Translations under genes and position numbers: made by a program
Notes under the pieces: generated by a model
What the model was told of the DNA's origin: nothing
Database searches by the model: none
The model's input: the letters and a program-made list of their open reading frames with translations, nothing else
Shown here: positions 5,082 through 39,429 of the stretch, piece by piece
How positions within the stretch are numbered: position 1 is the first letter of the stretch
Layout of the letters: each line of letters begins with the position of its first letter
Source: Ilumatobacter fluminis
GTDB lineage: Bacteria; Actinomycetota; Acidimicrobiia; Acidimicrobiales; Ilumatobacteraceae
NCBI RefSeq assembly: GCF_004364865.1
Contig: NZ_SOAU01000001.1
Coordinates: 4,186,001 to 4,250,000, forward strand
DNA: 64,000 bases
Direction of reading: 5' to 3'

Positions 5082-5738
5082 CTACGGGATGTTGGGCGCC
5101 CAGGCTTCCAGGGCGTCGAGCATCGTTCTCGACATCGTGCGGTGTTCCTTGGCGATTGCCTTGCTGCCGTCATCGTCGAGTCGCCAGCCGATCGCGAGCG
5201 CGCCGAAGTAGTTGCCGCGGAAGTACGGCAGGATGTCGGCGGTCTTGAAGTACCCGGTCAGGGAGTCGGGGACGTCGACCGTCGGCTCCCACCTCGGCGC
5301 ATCGATCGCCGGCAGCCCGAGCGCTTCGACCGCTGCCAGCACGTCCTCGTCGTGGGTTCGGTCGGCGAAGTCGCGCCCGGTGTAGCGGTAGCGCTCGTGG
5401 CCGTCCGGGTCGATCACGAGCAGGGCGGGCAGCCCGATGCCGTTGCGTTCCTCGGGGTCGAACAGGTCGAGCGGACGCAGGAACCGCTCACCGCCCGGAT
5501 CGGCGACGAATCGGATCGACTCGAGACCCCACCGCTGCGTCATGCCGGCTTGCCGGACGTCGTCGTCGACGCTGATCGCGATGACCTCCGCACCGGCGCC
5601 GTGGATCCGGTCGTGTTGCGTTGCCAGTCGCACGGACTGGGCACAGCAGTACGGTCACCAGTCGCCGCGGAACGTGATGAGCAGCACGGCGCCTTCGCGC
5701 TGCCGCAACGTCAGGATCTCCTCGTGCACGGTGTTCAT
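5082..5738 (-). CDS. Peroxiredoxin-like selenoprotein with in-frame TGA at the catalytic Cys position
   Basis: Read from ATG 5738, this is a 218-residue AhpC/TSA (thioredoxin-fold) protein. Codon 28 (5657-5655) is TGA, giving ...TFRGDW-U-PYCC.... In this family the position is the peroxidatic Cys of a WCPYC-type site, and Cys31 keeps the CxxC partner. After the TGA the frame continues with normal redoxin features (VIAISVDDD, LPALLVIDPDG) to TAG at 5084-5082. The start is supported by GAGGAGGG just upstream and an ATGA overlap with the TetR stop. A SECIS-like hairpin starts 6 nt after the TGA. Without Sec decoding, translation would stop at 27 residues, or restart at GTG 5633 without the active site. 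Likely role: thiol/selenol-dependent peroxide or disulfide reduction in the cytoplasm. Alternative: a pseudogene with one nonsense mutation. The Sec machinery is outside the window. Confidence 0.82.
5617..5648 (-). promoter_or_regulatory. Bacterial SECIS-like hairpin 3' of the in-frame TGA
   Basis: On the minus strand, UGC (5648-5646) pairs with GCA (5619-5617). Two mismatches follow, then UGCC (5643-5640) pairs with GGCA (5625-5622). After one bulged C (5639), AGUC (5638-5635) pairs with GACU (5629-5626). The apical loop is CGUGC (5634-5630). The loop begins 21 nt after the UGA and has G as its second base. This agrees with published bacterial SECIS rules: a short apical loop about 16-37 nt from UGA, with a G in its first two bases. 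Confidence 0.72.
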
Positions 5739-6367
5739 GAACCCTCCTCGGTTCTGGTCGAGTGTGTCGTTGGTCGGTCTGCGCCCGTGTCGATCACGGA
5801 GGACACGACGGCATGGGCGCGGCGATGGAGTTCTTCGGATGGCATACCCGCCCGAGCGAGCGACATGAATCCCTGCATCGCCACGCTGAGCGTCGCCGTC
5901 GCGGCGTCGATGTCGACGCCCGGCCGCAGGCGTCCGGATGCGGCGGCGCGTTCGACTTCCCGACGGAGGCTGGTCTCGATCACCGCCACGCCGATGAGGA
6001 CGGCATCACGCATCGCGTCGTCGAGGTCGTCGGCCGATGTCGTCGTGAGCAGGCAGCCTCGCAGCGCCTCGGAGGTGTCGGGCTGCTGCACGGAGCGCTC
6101 GAAGAACACGGTGATGTTCGCGACCGGGTCTCCCTCGCCCGACAGGTACTTGTCGACGCGTCGACGGACGACACGATCGACGTAGTGCTCGATCACCGCG
6201 ACACCCACGCCGCCACGAGATCCGAACCGTCGGTAGATCGACGGCGCCTTCACGTCGAGTGCCTGTTCGAGGTCGCGGATCGAGGTCGACGACCAACCGC
6301 GACGCCACACCACGTCGACCGCTCGGTCGAGGAGATCGGTGTCGTCGTACTTGGGAGTTCTGGCCAT
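5735..6367 (-). CDS. TetR family regulator, coupled to the selenoprotein gene
   Basis: A 210-residue protein with an N-terminal TetR helix-turn-helix (STSIRDLEQALDVKAPSIYRRFGSR read in part, about residues 27-50) and a helical ligand domain. Its TGA overlaps the ATG of the peroxiredoxin-like selenoprotein (ATGA), so the two genes are co-transcribed and probably translationally coupled. It is divergent from the haloalkane dehalogenase; both promoters lie in an 88-bp AT-rich gap. It probably represses its own operon and perhaps the dehalogenase in response to an organic or oxidising ligand. The ligand is inferred only from neighbours. Confidence 0.9.
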   Translation of the reverse strand: MARTPKYDDTDLLDRAVDVVWRRGWSSTSIRDLEQALDVKAPSIYRRFGSRGGVGVAVIEHYVDRVVRRRVDKYLSGEGDPVANITVFFERSVQQPDTSEALRGCLLTTTSADDLDDAMRDAVLIGVAVIETSLRREVERAAASGRLRPGVDIDAATATLSVAMQGFMSLARAGMPSEELHRRAHAVVSSVIDTGADRPTTHSTRTEEGS

Positions 6368-10197: not shown

Positions 10198-10813
10198 TAC
10201 GGTCGATCGCGTGGACGACCGGAGGGGACCGACCCGAACCCAGCGAGAGCGCACGAACGCCACGCGGGCCGCGCTCGTCGACGCCACACTCGATCTGCTC
10301 GCCGAACGTGGATGGGCCGCCACGACGTCGGTCGCTGCGTGCGAACGTGCCGGGTTGACGCGAGGCGCGCTGGTGCACCACTTCGGGGACCTGCCGACCC
10401 TTCTCGCCGACGCTCTCGAGGCGCATTACGCACGGCTGTCGGCCGAGATCGCCGACGAAGCGGCTCCAACATCGCTCGCCGATCTCGTCGAGACGACGTG
10501 GACCGTGATCGAGCGGGGTCGTTTCAAGATCGTCATCGAGGCGTGGCTCGCCGCGGCCAACGATCCGGAGCTCGGACGCGCCATCGGCCCCGTCGTGACC
10601 CGGTTCGCCAAGCTCGTGGATCCGGCCGAACGCCGTGACCTCGCACCCGACGACGCAACGCGGGCGCTGTACCTCACCGCCCGCGAAGCGATGCTGGGGC
10701 TTGCGCTCGGGCGCGCCACCGCCCAGGGTCCGCTTCCCCACGAACGCATCGTCGTCGACCAACTGATCGAGCTCGCTCGCATCCATGACGAGCGCCGAGG
10801 AGGAACACCATGA
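10184..10813 (+). CDS. TetR family regulator of the MFS/molybdoenzyme region
   Basis: About 209 residues. The TetR helix-turn-helix (TTSVAACERAGLTRGALVHHF, about residues 44-65; 20 of these are TSVAACERAGLTRGALVHHF) is followed by a helical ligand domain. Start choice is uncertain: ATG 10184 lies inside the operator palindrome, while in-frame GTG 10211 would place the operator fully upstream. Neither has a good SD. Its TGA overlaps the ATG of the molybdoenzyme (ATGA), so they form one operon. Confidence 0.85.
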   Translation: MYVSDTVDRVDDRRGPTRTQRERTNATRAALVDATLDLLAERGWAATTSVAACERAGLTRGALVHHFGDLPTLLADALEAHYARLSAEIADEAAPTSLADLVETTWTVIERGRFKIVIEAWLAAANDPELGRAIGPVVTRFAKLVDPAERRDLAPDDATRALYLTAREAMLGLALGRATAQGPLPHERIVVDQLIELARIHDERRGGTP

Positions 10814-13044
10814 CCGTCACCGGCCCCGCTCCGGGCGACACGACCACCGATCGGCGAATCGGCTATTCGGTCTGCACCATCTGCGACATCGGATGCCAGC
10901 TCCGCTCCGTCGCCGAGGACGGCAAGATCGTCCAGATCCTGCCGCACGACTCGCCGGCCGTCGCCCGCAACATCTGCTACAAGGGCACCGCTGCGCCGCA
11001 CATCCACAATCATGCGGAGCGAATCCGGGTACCGCTCAAACGGGTCGGCGAACGGGGTGACGACCGGTGGGAGGAGATCTCCTACGAGCAGGCAATGGAC
11101 GAGATCGCCGGCAAGCTCCGCACGGTCGTCGACACGTACGGACCCGAGGCCCTCGCCGTGTCGACGTCGGGTTGGAACACCCAGACGACCCACGGGTTCG
11201 ACCGGCGGTTCATGAACCTGCTCGGTTCACCGAACTGGATCTCCGGGGTCGCACTCTGCGCGGGAAATACGGCCGCCGTCAACCGACTCACCTACGGATG
11301 GATGCCGTTCCCCGACATCTCGAACTCGAGCTGTGTCGTCCTGCTCGGCCACAACCCGCGCAAGCACTCGTGGACGCCGATCTACAACATGATCGAAGGT
11401 GCCCGCAAGCGGGGCGCAGCGACGATCGTCGTCGACCCTCGTATCTCCGACCAGGCGGAGAAGGCGACCATCCACCTTCAGATCGAGGCCGGAACCGACA
11501 GCGCGCTCCTGCTCGGCTGGCTCAAGGTCATCATCGACGAACACCTCTACGACGCATCGTTCGTCGACGACTGGTGTGTCGGCTTCGACGAACTGAAGGC
11601 CCGCGCCGACGAGTACCCGCTCGACCGCGTCGCCGGTATCTGCGGCGTGCCTGCCGACCGGATCGCCGAGGCGGCGCGCATCTACGCCCGCGCCGATGGC
11701 GCCTGCATCCCGTGGACGCCGATCACCGACCAGCAACTCGACTCGACCTCGGGCATCCGCCTCCAATCGATCCTTCGGGCGATCACCGGCAACCTCGACG
11801 TGGTCGGCGGCGAAACGCTCAACGCACTCAACCCGGGGTGGCTCACCGAGGCCGACCTCCAGCTCCACGACGAACTCGGCGCCGCGCAGCGGGCCAAACA
11901 GCTCGGCTACGACACCCACCCGGTGTTCACCTATCGAACCGCCGAGATGCTGCGGCCGCATCTGAAGCGGGTATGGGGTCGCGAGTGGGTCGACCAGGTG
12001 ATGGGCTGCCACATGGCCAATCCGACCGAAGTCTTCCGGGCGATGGCCGACGGCGATCCGTATCCGGTCAAGGCGTTCATCACCCTCGGCAACAACACGT
12101 TGCTGTCGTATCCGAACCAGCACCAGATCCACCGGGCGCTCCTCAACCAGGATCTGATCGTCGCCCACGAGATCTTCATGACGCCGACGGCGATGCTCGC
12201 CGACTACGTCCTGCCCGGCGACGTGTTCACCGAACGCAACCACATCGCCGACGCATGGGCATGGGGGAACCGGCTGACCGTGTCGGAACGAATCGTCGAC
12301 CCGCCCGGGGAGGCGAGCTCGACGTTCCGATTCTGGACCGATCTGGGCCGCCGATTCGGCTTCGAGCAGCAATTCCCCTGGGACACCCTCGAGCAGGTAC
12401 TCGACCATCGTCTCGAACCGTCCGGCCGGACGTGGACCGAGTTCCGCGACTCGGTCGTGATGGAGATGCCGCCACCTGCATACCGCAAGTACCGCAAGAC
12501 GGGCTTCGCGACGCCGTCGGGCAAGGTCGAGTTGTCGTCGTCGATCCTGGAAGCACTCGGCTTCGACCCACTCCCCTACTACCGCGCCAAGCCCAAACCG
12601 ACCGAGGAGTACCCCTACCTGGTGTTCTCGGGCGTCCGTGAGGATCCGTTCTTCCAGACCGGTCAACGGAACATCGGGGTGCTGCGCCGACGGGTGCCGG
12701 CACCCAGCTTCTTCGTCCACCCCGACGACGCTGCCCGCGACGGCCTCGTCGAGGGCGAGTGGGCACGGCTCGAGACCCCACACGGTCAGGTTCGAGCAAC
12801 GGTGAGCGTGCAGTCCGGCATGCGGCCGGGTCACCTGCGCGTGCCGCACGGCTGGTGGTATCCGGAAACACGCGGCGACGTCGAGTTGGCCGGAGCGTTC
12901 GTCTCGTCCGACGCAGTCCTCACGATCGACTCCGACGAGCTGGTCGACTACGAGCAGGGAGTGCCGCACTTCAAGGGGTACCCGGGACGGCTCGTGCCGT
13001 GCCTCCCGCCCGACGGCATGGGCCGCACGACCCTCGAGGGCTGA
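10810..13044 (+). CDS. Molybdopterin oxidoreductase with N-terminal [4Fe-4S] domain
   Basis: A 744-residue enzyme of the DMSO-reductase/CISM superfamily. The N-terminal iron-sulfur ligands are Cys22, Cys25, Cys29 and Cys56 (C-x2-C-x3-C-x26-C). Cys150 in SGVALCAGN is the expected molybdenum or tungsten ligand, so the metal is bound by Cys rather than Sec. The molybdopterin dinucleotide-binding domain forms the C-terminal 120 residues. There is no twin-Arg leader, so it is probably cytoplasmic, and no electron-transfer subunit gene is adjacent. The family includes formate dehydrogenase, thiosulfate reductase and acetylene hydratase types; the substrate cannot be named. AGGAGG precedes the ATG, which overlaps the TetR stop. 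Confidence 0.9.
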   Translation: MTVTGPAPGDTTTDRRIGYSVCTICDIGCQLRSVAEDGKIVQILPHDSPAVARNICYKGTAAPHIHNHAERIRVPLKRVGERGDDRWEEISYEQAMDEIAGKLRTVVDTYGPEALAVSTSGWNTQTTHGFDRRFMNLLGSPNWISGVALCAGNTAAVNRLTYGWMPFPDISNSSCVVLLGHNPRKHSWTPIYNMIEGARKRGAATIVVDPRISDQAEKATIHLQIEAGTDSALLLGWLKVIIDEHLYDASFVDDWCVGFDELKARADEYPLDRVAGICGVPADRIAEAARIYARADGACIPWTPITDQQLDSTSGIRLQSILRAITGNLDVVGGETLNALNPGWLTEADLQLHDELGAAQRAKQLGYDTHPVFTYRTAEMLRPHLKRVWGREWVDQVMGCHMANPTEVFRAMADGDPYPVKAFITLGNNTLLSYPNQHQIHRALLNQDLIVAHEIFMTPTAMLADYVLPGDVFTERNHIADAWAWGNRLTVSERIVDPPGEASSTFRFWTDLGRRFGFEQQFPWDTLEQVLDHRLEPSGRTWTEFRDSVVMEMPPPAYRKYRKTGFATPSGKVELSSSILEALGFDPLPYYRAKPKPTEEYPYLVFSGVREDPFFQTGQRNIGVLRRRVPAPSFFVHPDDAARDGLVEGEWARLETPHGQVRATVSVQSGMRPGHLRVPHGWWYPETRGDVELAGAFVSSDAVLTIDSDELVDYEQGVPHFKGYPGRLVPCLPPDGMGRTTLEG

Positions 13045-37010: not shown

Positions 37011-38416
37011 CGCTGCTGCTCCCTCAGGCGGCGCTTGATCGCCGCGAGTTCGATCCGTTCGGGCATCTCGTTGTAGAAGTCGTCGAGCGGATAGCACCCC
37101 GACACGAGGCCACCCCGGGGTGCGGTCGTGCAGTCGGAGAAGGTCCGGCAGATCGCTCGGCGACGCATCGGCCGACCCTGGAGGACGTCGGCCGCGAGGT
37201 CGGGATAGCTCAGGATCATCCGGCCGAGCCCGATCAGGTCGGTGCCGCCGACGGTTGCGACGGCGTCGGCGACGTGGGGGAGGAAGTCCTGGAGATACGA
37301 GTAGCCGGAACCCACGAAGGTCAGGTTCGGGTGTGCCGCCCGGAGCTCGGCCGTGGCTGCGATCTGGCGGGCGACGCCGACCAGCGGATCCTCCGGCGGC
37401 TGGTATCCGTCGGACGGCGGGAAGTACGCCGGCCGTTGGATGTGCGGGTTGGTGTACGGGCTACCGGCGGTGGTGGACACCAGTCCGATGCCGAGCTCGC
37501 CGACGAGGTCGAGGAAGCGGTTCGGTTCGTCGAGGTCGATCGATGTCCCGTCGGACGTGCCGCCGAACGGCACGGGTGCGCCGGCGGACGGCTCGGGTTC
37601 GCCGACGCCGTCGGCACCCCGACGGAACGGAACGAAGTCGAACGCCGAGAGGCGCACGGCCACGGCGAGGTGTGGCCGCTCGGCGCGGATGCGCTCGACG
37701 ACGGTCCGGAAGAATCGGGTCCGCCCCTCGAAGTCGCCGCCAAATCGGCCGGAGCGGTCGCGAGCGCCGAGCAACTCGTGGAGCAGGTAGCCGTGACAGC
37801 ACTTCACGTCGACGAAGTCGAACCCGGCGTCGGCCACGCGGATTGCGGCTGCGACGTACGCCTCGATGAGTTCGTCGAGTTCGCCGTCGCTCATCACCTC
37901 GTCGCCGCGCAGGTGCTGCCTCGCGTCGAGAACGGGATGCGGCTGCGCCGGCCGCGGCACCGGATCGGCGACCGGGCGGCACCAGCGTCCCGAGTGGGTG
38001 AGTTGCAGCCCGGAGACCTGGGCGGGATCGAGCAGTGAGCGGAGGCCGGCGATCGCCTCGGCGTTGCGCTCGTCGAGCACGAGCTGGTTCGGGTTGGCTC
38101 GCCCTGTCGGGTGAACCGCGGTGGCTTCCCCCCACACGAGGCCACAGCCGCTCGACCCGAAGCGCGACCAGCGGCGACGCACGAGATCGGTCGGCGCACC
38201 GTCGGTCGTCCCGTCCCATCCCTCCATCGGGAGCACGGCGAACCGGTTCGGAATGGTGAACTCGCCGGCGCTCCCGTCGGTGAACGTGACGGAGTCGGCG
38301 AGCACCCCGCTCGGGTCGACGCGGTCGCTGACGGGTAGTCCGATGCCGATCCGATCGAGGTGGTCGCGCAGGGCCTCGGGACCGTCGAGTTTCTTGATCT
38401 GTGTGTAGCGGGTCAT
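37007..38416 (-). CDS. NADH:flavin oxidoreductase (Old Yellow Enzyme family)
   Basis: 469 residues. A TIM-barrel FMN enzyme with the segments LQLTHSGRW, FVDVKCCHGYLLHELLGA, and GLGRMILSYPDLA. The C-terminal Cys-rich stretch CRTFSDCTTAPRGGLVSGCY resembles the metal- or cluster-binding tail of the larger members. It probably reduces an activated C=C bond or acts on a keto sugar-derived substrate. ATG 38416 overlaps the aldolase stop (ATGA), and its stop overlaps the DUF2264 start, forming a three-gene coupled unit. Confidence 0.85.
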   Translation of the reverse strand: MTRYTQIKKLDGPEALRDHLDRIGIGLPVSDRVDPSGVLADSVTFTDGSAGEFTIPNRFAVLPMEGWDGTTDGAPTDLVRRRWSRFGSSGCGLVWGEATAVHPTGRANPNQLVLDERNAEAIAGLRSLLDPAQVSGLQLTHSGRWCRPVADPVPRPAQPHPVLDARQHLRGDEVMSDGELDELIEAYVAAAIRVADAGFDFVDVKCCHGYLLHELLGARDRSGRFGGDFEGRTRFFRTVVERIRAERPHLAVAVRLSAFDFVPFRRGADGVGEPEPSAGAPVPFGGTSDGTSIDLDEPNRFLDLVGELGIGLVSTTAGSPYTNPHIQRPAYFPPSDGYQPPEDPLVGVARQIAATAELRAAHPNLTFVGSGYSYLQDFLPHVADAVATVGGTDLIGLGRMILSYPDLAADVLQGRPMRRRAICRTFSDCTTAPRGGLVSGCYPLDDFYNEMPERIELAAIKRRLREQQR

Positions 38417-39354
38417 GCCAGCGCGTCCATCAGTGCGTCGACGCGTTCGGCGATGTCGGACAACACCGCACGATCGCTGTCGGGGCGCCGGGGGGCACCG
38501 TCCGGCACAGCCGAGCTCGCCGCCCACCCGCGCAGCTCGAGGAACATCGCAGCGTCGTGCCGATACGCCGGCACCGGGGCACGGAAGGCGAACATCCCCA
38601 GGTACTGCAGCAGATCGTTGACCTCCCAGAAGCGGGCGTCGTCATCGCGCCAGAGTCGGTCACGAACGCCGAACAGGTCGGGGGCGAACGTCGACAGACC
38701 GAGCAGGTAGTCGGAGCCGTAGACGACCATGTCGATGGCCAAGTCGTTGCCGGTGAAGACGGCGAAATCGGGGCGTCGACGGTCGCGGAGCGCCAGCCGA
38801 TCCCATTCGGCCTGCCGCGACAGCGACGAGTGCTTGGCACCGATGCAGGCGTCGACGCCGAGCAGACCGTCGTAGGCATCGAGCCCGCGGATGCGACCGT
38901 ACGGGACGAACATCGATCCGAGTTCGAAGCCGATGAACCGGTCGCAGCTCGAACCGAGCTCGGCCATGGCGGCGACCCACGCGTCGTCGTCGAGGGCATT
39001 GAGCCCCCACGACGGGAACACCACCGGCGTCCCTCCGGCCTCGGCGACCTCGGCGCACGATCTGGCCATGGCCCCCGGGTCGTAGGCGGATCCGTCGTCG
39101 TCGGCGACGAACGCCCCGGCGACGAACCGGTCGACCGTGCGGCGGGCGAGATCGAGGACGTGTCGTCGCGTGCCGGGTTCGAGCAGCTGGACGAAGCCGG
39201 TGTCCATGTTGACGGCGGGGGTGAGGCCGGCGGCGGCGGTTCGGGCGAGGTGCGCCTCGAACGACGACCAGTCGATCGAGCCGTCCACGTGATGGGTGAG
39301 CAGCACGGCGGACATTCCGTCGATCGTCCGGCCGTGCTGCTGGAGCGGAGTCAT
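38413..39354 (-). CDS. DapA-like aldolase/lyase (DHDPS family, DUF993-like)
   Basis: About 313 residues from ATG 39354; an in-frame TTG at 39396 would add 14. The fold reads as a DapA-type TIM barrel: TPLQQHGRTIDG, SAVLLTHHVDGSIDW, LTPAVNMDTGF, RFIGFELGSMFVPYG, and a Lys in IGAKHSSLS that is a candidate Schiff-base residue. Such enzymes cleave 2-keto-3-deoxy sugar acids. It is first in the minus-strand arm, directly behind the palindromic LacI-type operator. Confidence 0.75.
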   Translation of the reverse strand: MTPLQQHGRTIDGMSAVLLTHHVDGSIDWSSFEAHLARTAAAGLTPAVNMDTGFVQLLEPGTRRHVLDLARRTVDRFVAGAFVADDDGSAYDPGAMARSCAEVAEAGGTPVVFPSWGLNALDDDAWVAAMAELGSSCDRFIGFELGSMFVPYGRIRGLDAYDGLLGVDACIGAKHSSLSRQAEWDRLALRDRRRPDFAVFTGNDLAIDMVVYGSDYLLGLSTFAPDLFGVRDRLWRDDDARFWEVNDLLQYLGMFAFRAPVPAYRHDAAMFLELRGWAASSAVPDGAPRRPDSDRAVLSDIAERVDALMDALA

Positions 39355-39390
39355 CGGCACGAGTGCCAGGTTCGCGCGTCGCTGCTCGGT

Positions 39391-39406
39391 TTGCAAGCGC
39401 TTGCAA
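39391..39406. promoter_or_regulatory. Perfect 16-bp LacI-type operator
   Basis: TTGCAAGCGCTTGCAA is a perfect palindrome with the central CG typical of LacI/GalR operators. It lies between the divergent DapA-like and LacI genes. Its right half forms the -35 box of the lacI promoter, so bound repressor would block that promoter and probably both arms of the cluster. Confidence 0.88.
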
Positions 39407-39429
39407 GATCCTCACCACTTCCGTACCAT
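39401..39429 (+). promoter_or_regulatory. Promoter of the LacI-family gene (leaderless)
   Basis: The -35 TTGCAA (39401-39406) and -10 TACCAT (39424-39429) have a 17-bp spacer. The GTG start at 39437 falls 7 nt past the -10, where transcription should begin, so the mRNA is probably leaderless. Confidence 0.65.

Follow-up and report, generated by a model that had tools for sequence, protein, structure and literature searches.

Peroxiredoxin-like (Prx-like) selenoproteins with a thioredoxin-type UxxC motif, as described in PMC1088965, have a history that goes back to the 2000s (PMC1088965, PMC13188914). Among the entries of a 2026 table is also a selenoprotein named 'Redoxin family protein', which falls into PF08534 and bears UxxC (HEU0032618.1; PMC13188914). 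The window considered here, a stretch of 64,000 nucleotides from Ilumatobacter fluminis (contig NZ_SOAU01000001.1, positions 4,186,001 to 4,250,000), holds on its minus strand a gene for which these are among the nearest known counterparts. Judging from the sequence comparisons presented below, it encodes with a probability of roughly 95% a selenocysteine-containing redoxin in which SelB and a hairpin recode UGA at codon 28.

With the Prx-like thiol:disulfide oxidoreductase selenoproteins (PF00578), the window protein has in common the Pfam family, UxxC in place of TxxU, an alternation of Sec with Cys, and the redoxin fold. It differs from them, published members being compared by description, in its RGDW-U-PYC[C/N] motif and a C-terminal two-helix segment; unlike them, the window subfamily has Sec in most of the members found in its phylum. 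HEU0032618.1, likewise compared by description, has the same Pfam family and UxxC motif and could be a member of the window subfamily. Canonical peroxiredoxins (AhpC, Bcp/PrxQ and Sec-Prx with TxxU) have the same fold and can be aligned through the active site, whereas the window protein places Sec at the Thr position and Cys31 at the peroxidatic position and is devoid of PxxxTxxC. The TlpA/ResA-type thioredoxin-fold oxidoreductases likewise have their CxxC or UxxC after the first strand, but the window protein has no signal peptide (by reading) and carries extra C-terminal helices. The best NCBIfam match is the SelL-related redox protein (NF040769), which is also matched weakly by 56 of 61 relatives; for the window protein the match covers residues 13-82 only and scores 26.6 bits where the cut-off is 120, and no NCBIfam model exceeds its cut-off. 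Literature searched for selenoproteins of Ilumatobacter, Acidimicrobi-, Thermoleophil- and Rubrobacter gave no report of this redoxin family.

With published members compared by description, the gene belongs to a branch of the known Prx-like UxxC selenoproteins that is uncurated and uses mainly Sec. A bolder view, which we hold tentatively and with some doubt, is that it represents a distinct uncurated redoxin subfamily of the actinobacterial phylum in which Sec is usual and perhaps ancestral and Cys came later, possibly with a chemistry between those of thioredoxin and peroxiredoxin. Its distinguishing marks would be Sec at the peroxiredoxin Thr beside Cys at the peroxidatic position, together with the C-terminal helical segment.

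The reading frame and the selenocysteine machinery

Read with TGA as U, the frame 5738..5082 yields 218 residues, MNTVHEEILTLRQREGAVLLITFRGDW-U-PYCCAQSVRLATQ..., with a single TGA in the motif FRGDW-U-PYCC and 190 open codons behind it before a TAG stop at 5084-5082 (Table 1). An open frame alone is little evidence in this GC-rich DNA, where the ORF list includes dozens of long spurious ORFs. Two Pfam models span the TGA, namely AhpC-TSA (PF00578; residues 5-114, 3.8e-12, 46.7 bits, cut-off 26) and Redoxin (PF08534; residues 10-124, 4.9e-12, 46.3 bits, cut-off 26.6). At the level of sequence, the non-chance support for the full frame is this homology across the TGA together with 11 same-family orthologues that have TGA in the same column.

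The ATG at 5738 overlaps the TGA stop of the TetR-like ORF as ATGA, and the two genes probably share a transcript. Since the TetR-like gene is absent beside the relatives and occurs at the window locus only, it is not part of a conserved system. No conserved gene neighbourhood was found in the relatives, with recurrent neighbours only among close relatives, and no conserved neighbour gene gives a clue to the substrate. The mechanical ORF list contains only 5082..5633, a 183-residue ORF starting with GTG, and taking it as the gene call would lose the active site. The sequence-only reading had described a single TGA at codon 28 followed by 190 open redoxin-like codons, a strong Shine-Dalgarno sequence with an ATGA overlap, and an annotation trimmed to 183 residues from GTG 5633; direct reading, the Pfam matches and the ORF list bear it out on each count.

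Table 1. Coordinates of the redoxin gene and associated features in the window.
Feature	Position	Strand	Basis
Putative Sec-containing redoxin gene, 218 aa with U28	5082..5738	-	reading, Pfam, orthologues, AlphaFold2 model
In-frame TGA probably read as selenocysteine, codon 28	5655..5657	-	58 TGA and 6 TGC in 64 relatives
Cys31, partner of Sec28 in UxxC	5646..5648	-	invariant in relatives; PDB profile alignment
SECIS-like hairpin CCAGTC-CGTGC-GACTGG, starting 14 nt after TGA	5624..5640	-	synonymous-codon null, pair counts
Shine-Dalgarno AGGAGG, 4 nt before ATG 5738	5743..5748	-	direct reading
Upstream TetR-like regulator ORF	5735..6367	-	ORF list; TetR assignment by reading

The genome is a single contig of 4,775,416 bases (4.78 Mb) and is 99.97% complete. 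A tRNA-Sec lies at C1:850365-850456 (66.6 bits against a cut-off of 47) and is called by ARAGORN as tRNA-SeC with anticodon TCA. The selB gene (765588-766661; 271.9 bits, cut-off 242) includes a SelB-wing_3 domain and is directly adjoined by selA (405.6 bits), while selD (324.5 bits) has an active-site region, TSCGGCAAK, with Cys and not Sec. All four components that the sequence-only reading had proposed to look for are present in this complete genome.

Among 36 genomes of relatives tested, selA was found in 31 and a tRNA-Sec over the cut-off in 29. About 28 TGA-bearing genomes were checked, and only G697 and G778, both incomplete (82 and 88%), show neither selA nor a tRNA-Sec over the cut-off. 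A genome of the same family with a TGA gene (G036, 89% complete) has selA and no tRNA-Sec over the cut-off. Cys-bearing genomes have mostly kept the machinery as well. Because most of the family has tRNA-Sec, its presence or absence within the family is a weak test.

Other candidate codons and genes were also encountered. Elsewhere in the same genome, a gene on the plus strand (L131; G000:C1:3131964-3132359, TGA near 3132168) encodes a lipoprotein-like TlpA/thioredoxin with the motif WFWAPW-U-STC. The Pfam models AhpC-TSA, Redoxin and Thioredoxin match it through the TGA, and no clear hairpin was seen after that codon; this TlpA-like WUSTC protein is likely a second selenoprotein of the genome. 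A different redoxin in a genome of the same genus (L047 in G054, reverse strand, ~1501-1929) has an in-frame TGA in SAVW-U-PPCRTQLVEL and is a candidate for another UxxC selenoprotein. Within the window, a TGA at 39414 on the minus strand (WUGSC) was rejected because it precedes the start of an ordinary gene (38413..39396) and has a divergent regulator beside it. The window also holds a molybdopterin-oxidoreductase-like ORF of 744 residues (10810..13044, plus strand, by reading) with Cys (CTICDIGC) and no in-frame TGA.

Active site and fold

When profiles are aligned with solved peroxiredoxins, DWUPYC falls opposite DFTPVC, and U28 matches the motif Thr and C31 the peroxidatic Cys. Sec would therefore come first in a thioredoxin-type UxxC motif (U28-P-Y-C31) that stands in place of TxxU/TxxC. 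The PxxxTxxC(P) motif of peroxiredoxins is absent, its Thr being replaced by Sec in RGDW-U-PYC. The sequence-only reading had put Sec at the position of the peroxidatic Cys, which is off by three residues, C31 being the residue that aligns there.

The AlphaFold2 model (mean pLDDT 95.1, pTM 0.90) combines a thioredoxin/peroxiredoxin core (residues ~1-140) with a C-terminal pair of long helices (166-186 and 190-216). Residues invariant in 61 relatives include R24, G25, D26, W27, the Sec/Cys column, C31, Q34, P104 and R127, among others. Of these, P104 stands just before strand 105-109 and may be placed like the cis-Pro of the thioredoxin/peroxiredoxin fold.

One alternative concerns function only. 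The alignment of C31 with the peroxidatic Cys, and the fact that the best solved-structure matches are peroxiredoxins, may suggest a true selenoperoxidase in which Cys31 is peroxidatic and Sec28 has a helper or resolving role, as opposed to a UxxC thiol-disulfide oxidoreductase. Such an enzyme is rather unlikely, given that Sec replaces the Thr of the peroxiredoxin motif, that the UxxC/CxxC pair is the thioredoxin arrangement, and that ResA-type oxidoreductases match too.

The TGA column and the downstream hairpin

The 121 genomes searched in the same family hold 11 further genes with exactly one TGA, in the same column and within GDW-TGA-P[YF]CC, and these are 39-63% identical to the window protein by alignment; no Cys orthologue was seen in these genomes. 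The set was enlarged by profile searches that covered 345 genomes at the level of the class and 396 at that of the phylum. Inspection of the DNA of 64 relatives shows TGA at this codon in 58, TGC (Cys) in six and no other, which for these genes answers in the affirmative the question raised by the sequence-only reading of whether this column is always Cys or TGA. A scan of genome contigs returned as its sole match one distant Cys homologue (Azospirillum, TGT), and a scan of plasmids for homologues returned none.

A divergent member (L125) has TGA in GDF-U-TYC, and the residues after the motif define two subclades, UPYCC (that of the window) versus UPYCN. In the tree, the window gene falls within an all-TGA clade of 14 (support 100/96), while the six Cys genes are nested among the TGA genes of one bacterial family, forcing at least two label changes. 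One TGA orthologue (L043 in G016) has its C-terminal half cut by an early stop or frameshift, leaving 118 codons after the TGA versus ~190; the shortening reflects either decay or an assembly error.

In the mRNA the hairpin reads CCAGUC-CGUGC-GACUGG, with an apical-loop G-U at 5633-5632, and the spurious start GTG 5633 falls inside this loop. Across 15 UPYCC-clade genes, 97% of hairpin cells are paired and three of the seven pairs have changed on both sides (G-C/A-U, C-G/U-A, G-C/C-G), the compensatory changes being mostly synonymous. The covariation score in these genes is 0.332, as against 0.052 or less with the strands slid. Under a synonymous-codon null, the 30 nt after the TGA have a mean z of -0.84 in the 15 UPYCC-clade genes and -0.92 in 43 other TGA genes. 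The rest of the gene gives a mean z of ~0, and for the six TGC genes the value is +0.06; as the genes are related, these means are not independent tests. By itself the window hairpin is not unusually stable (z of -0.67 and -0.95), and an Rfam scan gave no SECIS family there even at E=10.

The apical-loop G-U is lost in five of the six TGC genes. Most UPYCN genes have the loop GGUC, as does the fdhF SECIS of E. coli. The loop U is missing from six TGA genes: L104 and five others (L090, L094, L095, L096 and L099) in which QLAS replaces QLVS and the loop would be GGCC instead of GGUC, possibly a variant SECIS. A conserved G in the apical loop is a mark of bacterial SECIS elements (PMC1794560). 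Since its signal appears only right after the TGA and is absent from the TGC genes, the hairpin behaves like a bacterial SECIS, and on comparative grounds it is a candidate for one. Together, the sel machinery, the TGA/Cys column and the covarying hairpin strongly support the selenoprotein that the sequence-only reading had proposed.

Three other accounts of the TGA may be considered. Were it a true stop, there would be a 27-codon leader followed by a separate 183-residue protein from GTG 5633, exactly the ORF in the mechanical list, and a GTG close behind a UGA stop can permit re-initiation. This arrangement is nevertheless highly improbable, because the shorter protein would be deprived of both strand one and the UxxC active site that belong to its fold, the coding sequence 5' of the TGA shows conservation of a redoxin strand and of RGDW, the loop of the conserved hairpin contains the GTG, and in the Cys relatives the frame runs on without a break. 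No more credible is decoding as Trp or Cys by a suppressor tRNA or readthrough, for which there is room in that residue 28 is known from sequence alone; the column alternates with Cys and never Trp, the SECIS-type hairpin is specific to TGA genes, the Sec system is complete and selA or tRNA-Sec occurs in most of the TGA-bearing relatives checked, and the adjoining TetR-like ORF, an ordinary gene, terminates with TGA. Decay of a Cys redoxin into a pseudogene through a nonsense mutation has in its favour that TGA (Sec) is one base from the TGC (Cys) of six relatives, but it can be regarded as refuted in practice by a TGA kept in 58 genes over several families of the phylum, and it also conflicts with the open frame and third-position-biased divergence after the TGA and with the sel machinery in the genome.

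Proposed mechanism and significance

For the selenoprotein, the following scheme may be envisaged. SelA, SelD and tRNA-Sec would produce Sec-tRNA, and SelB, guided by the downstream hairpin, would bring it to UGA codon 28. The product, of ~24 kDa, would combine a UPYC active site and a thioredoxin/peroxiredoxin fold with the C-terminal two-helix segment. The selenolate of Sec28 may attack a peroxide or disulfide substrate and then form a selenenylsulfide with Cys31, Cys32 being a possible second partner in the UPYCC clade, and re-reduction could be carried out by thioredoxin or a small-thiol-type reductant. The recoding machinery, the hairpin, the predicted fold and the conserved TGA/Cys column are evident from sequence, and the chemical steps are inferred; the activity would be thiol-disulfide or peroxide reduction.

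The gene adds a well-supported selenoprotein to a bacterial group, and the literature searched holds no report of it there. Because no NCBIfam model names the protein over its cut-off, simple gene-calling would trim it to 183 residues without the active site, and would do likewise to dozens of relatives. The TGA/TGC pairs, with the SECIS kept or lost, are naturally suited to a comparison that asks what a redoxin gains from selenium.
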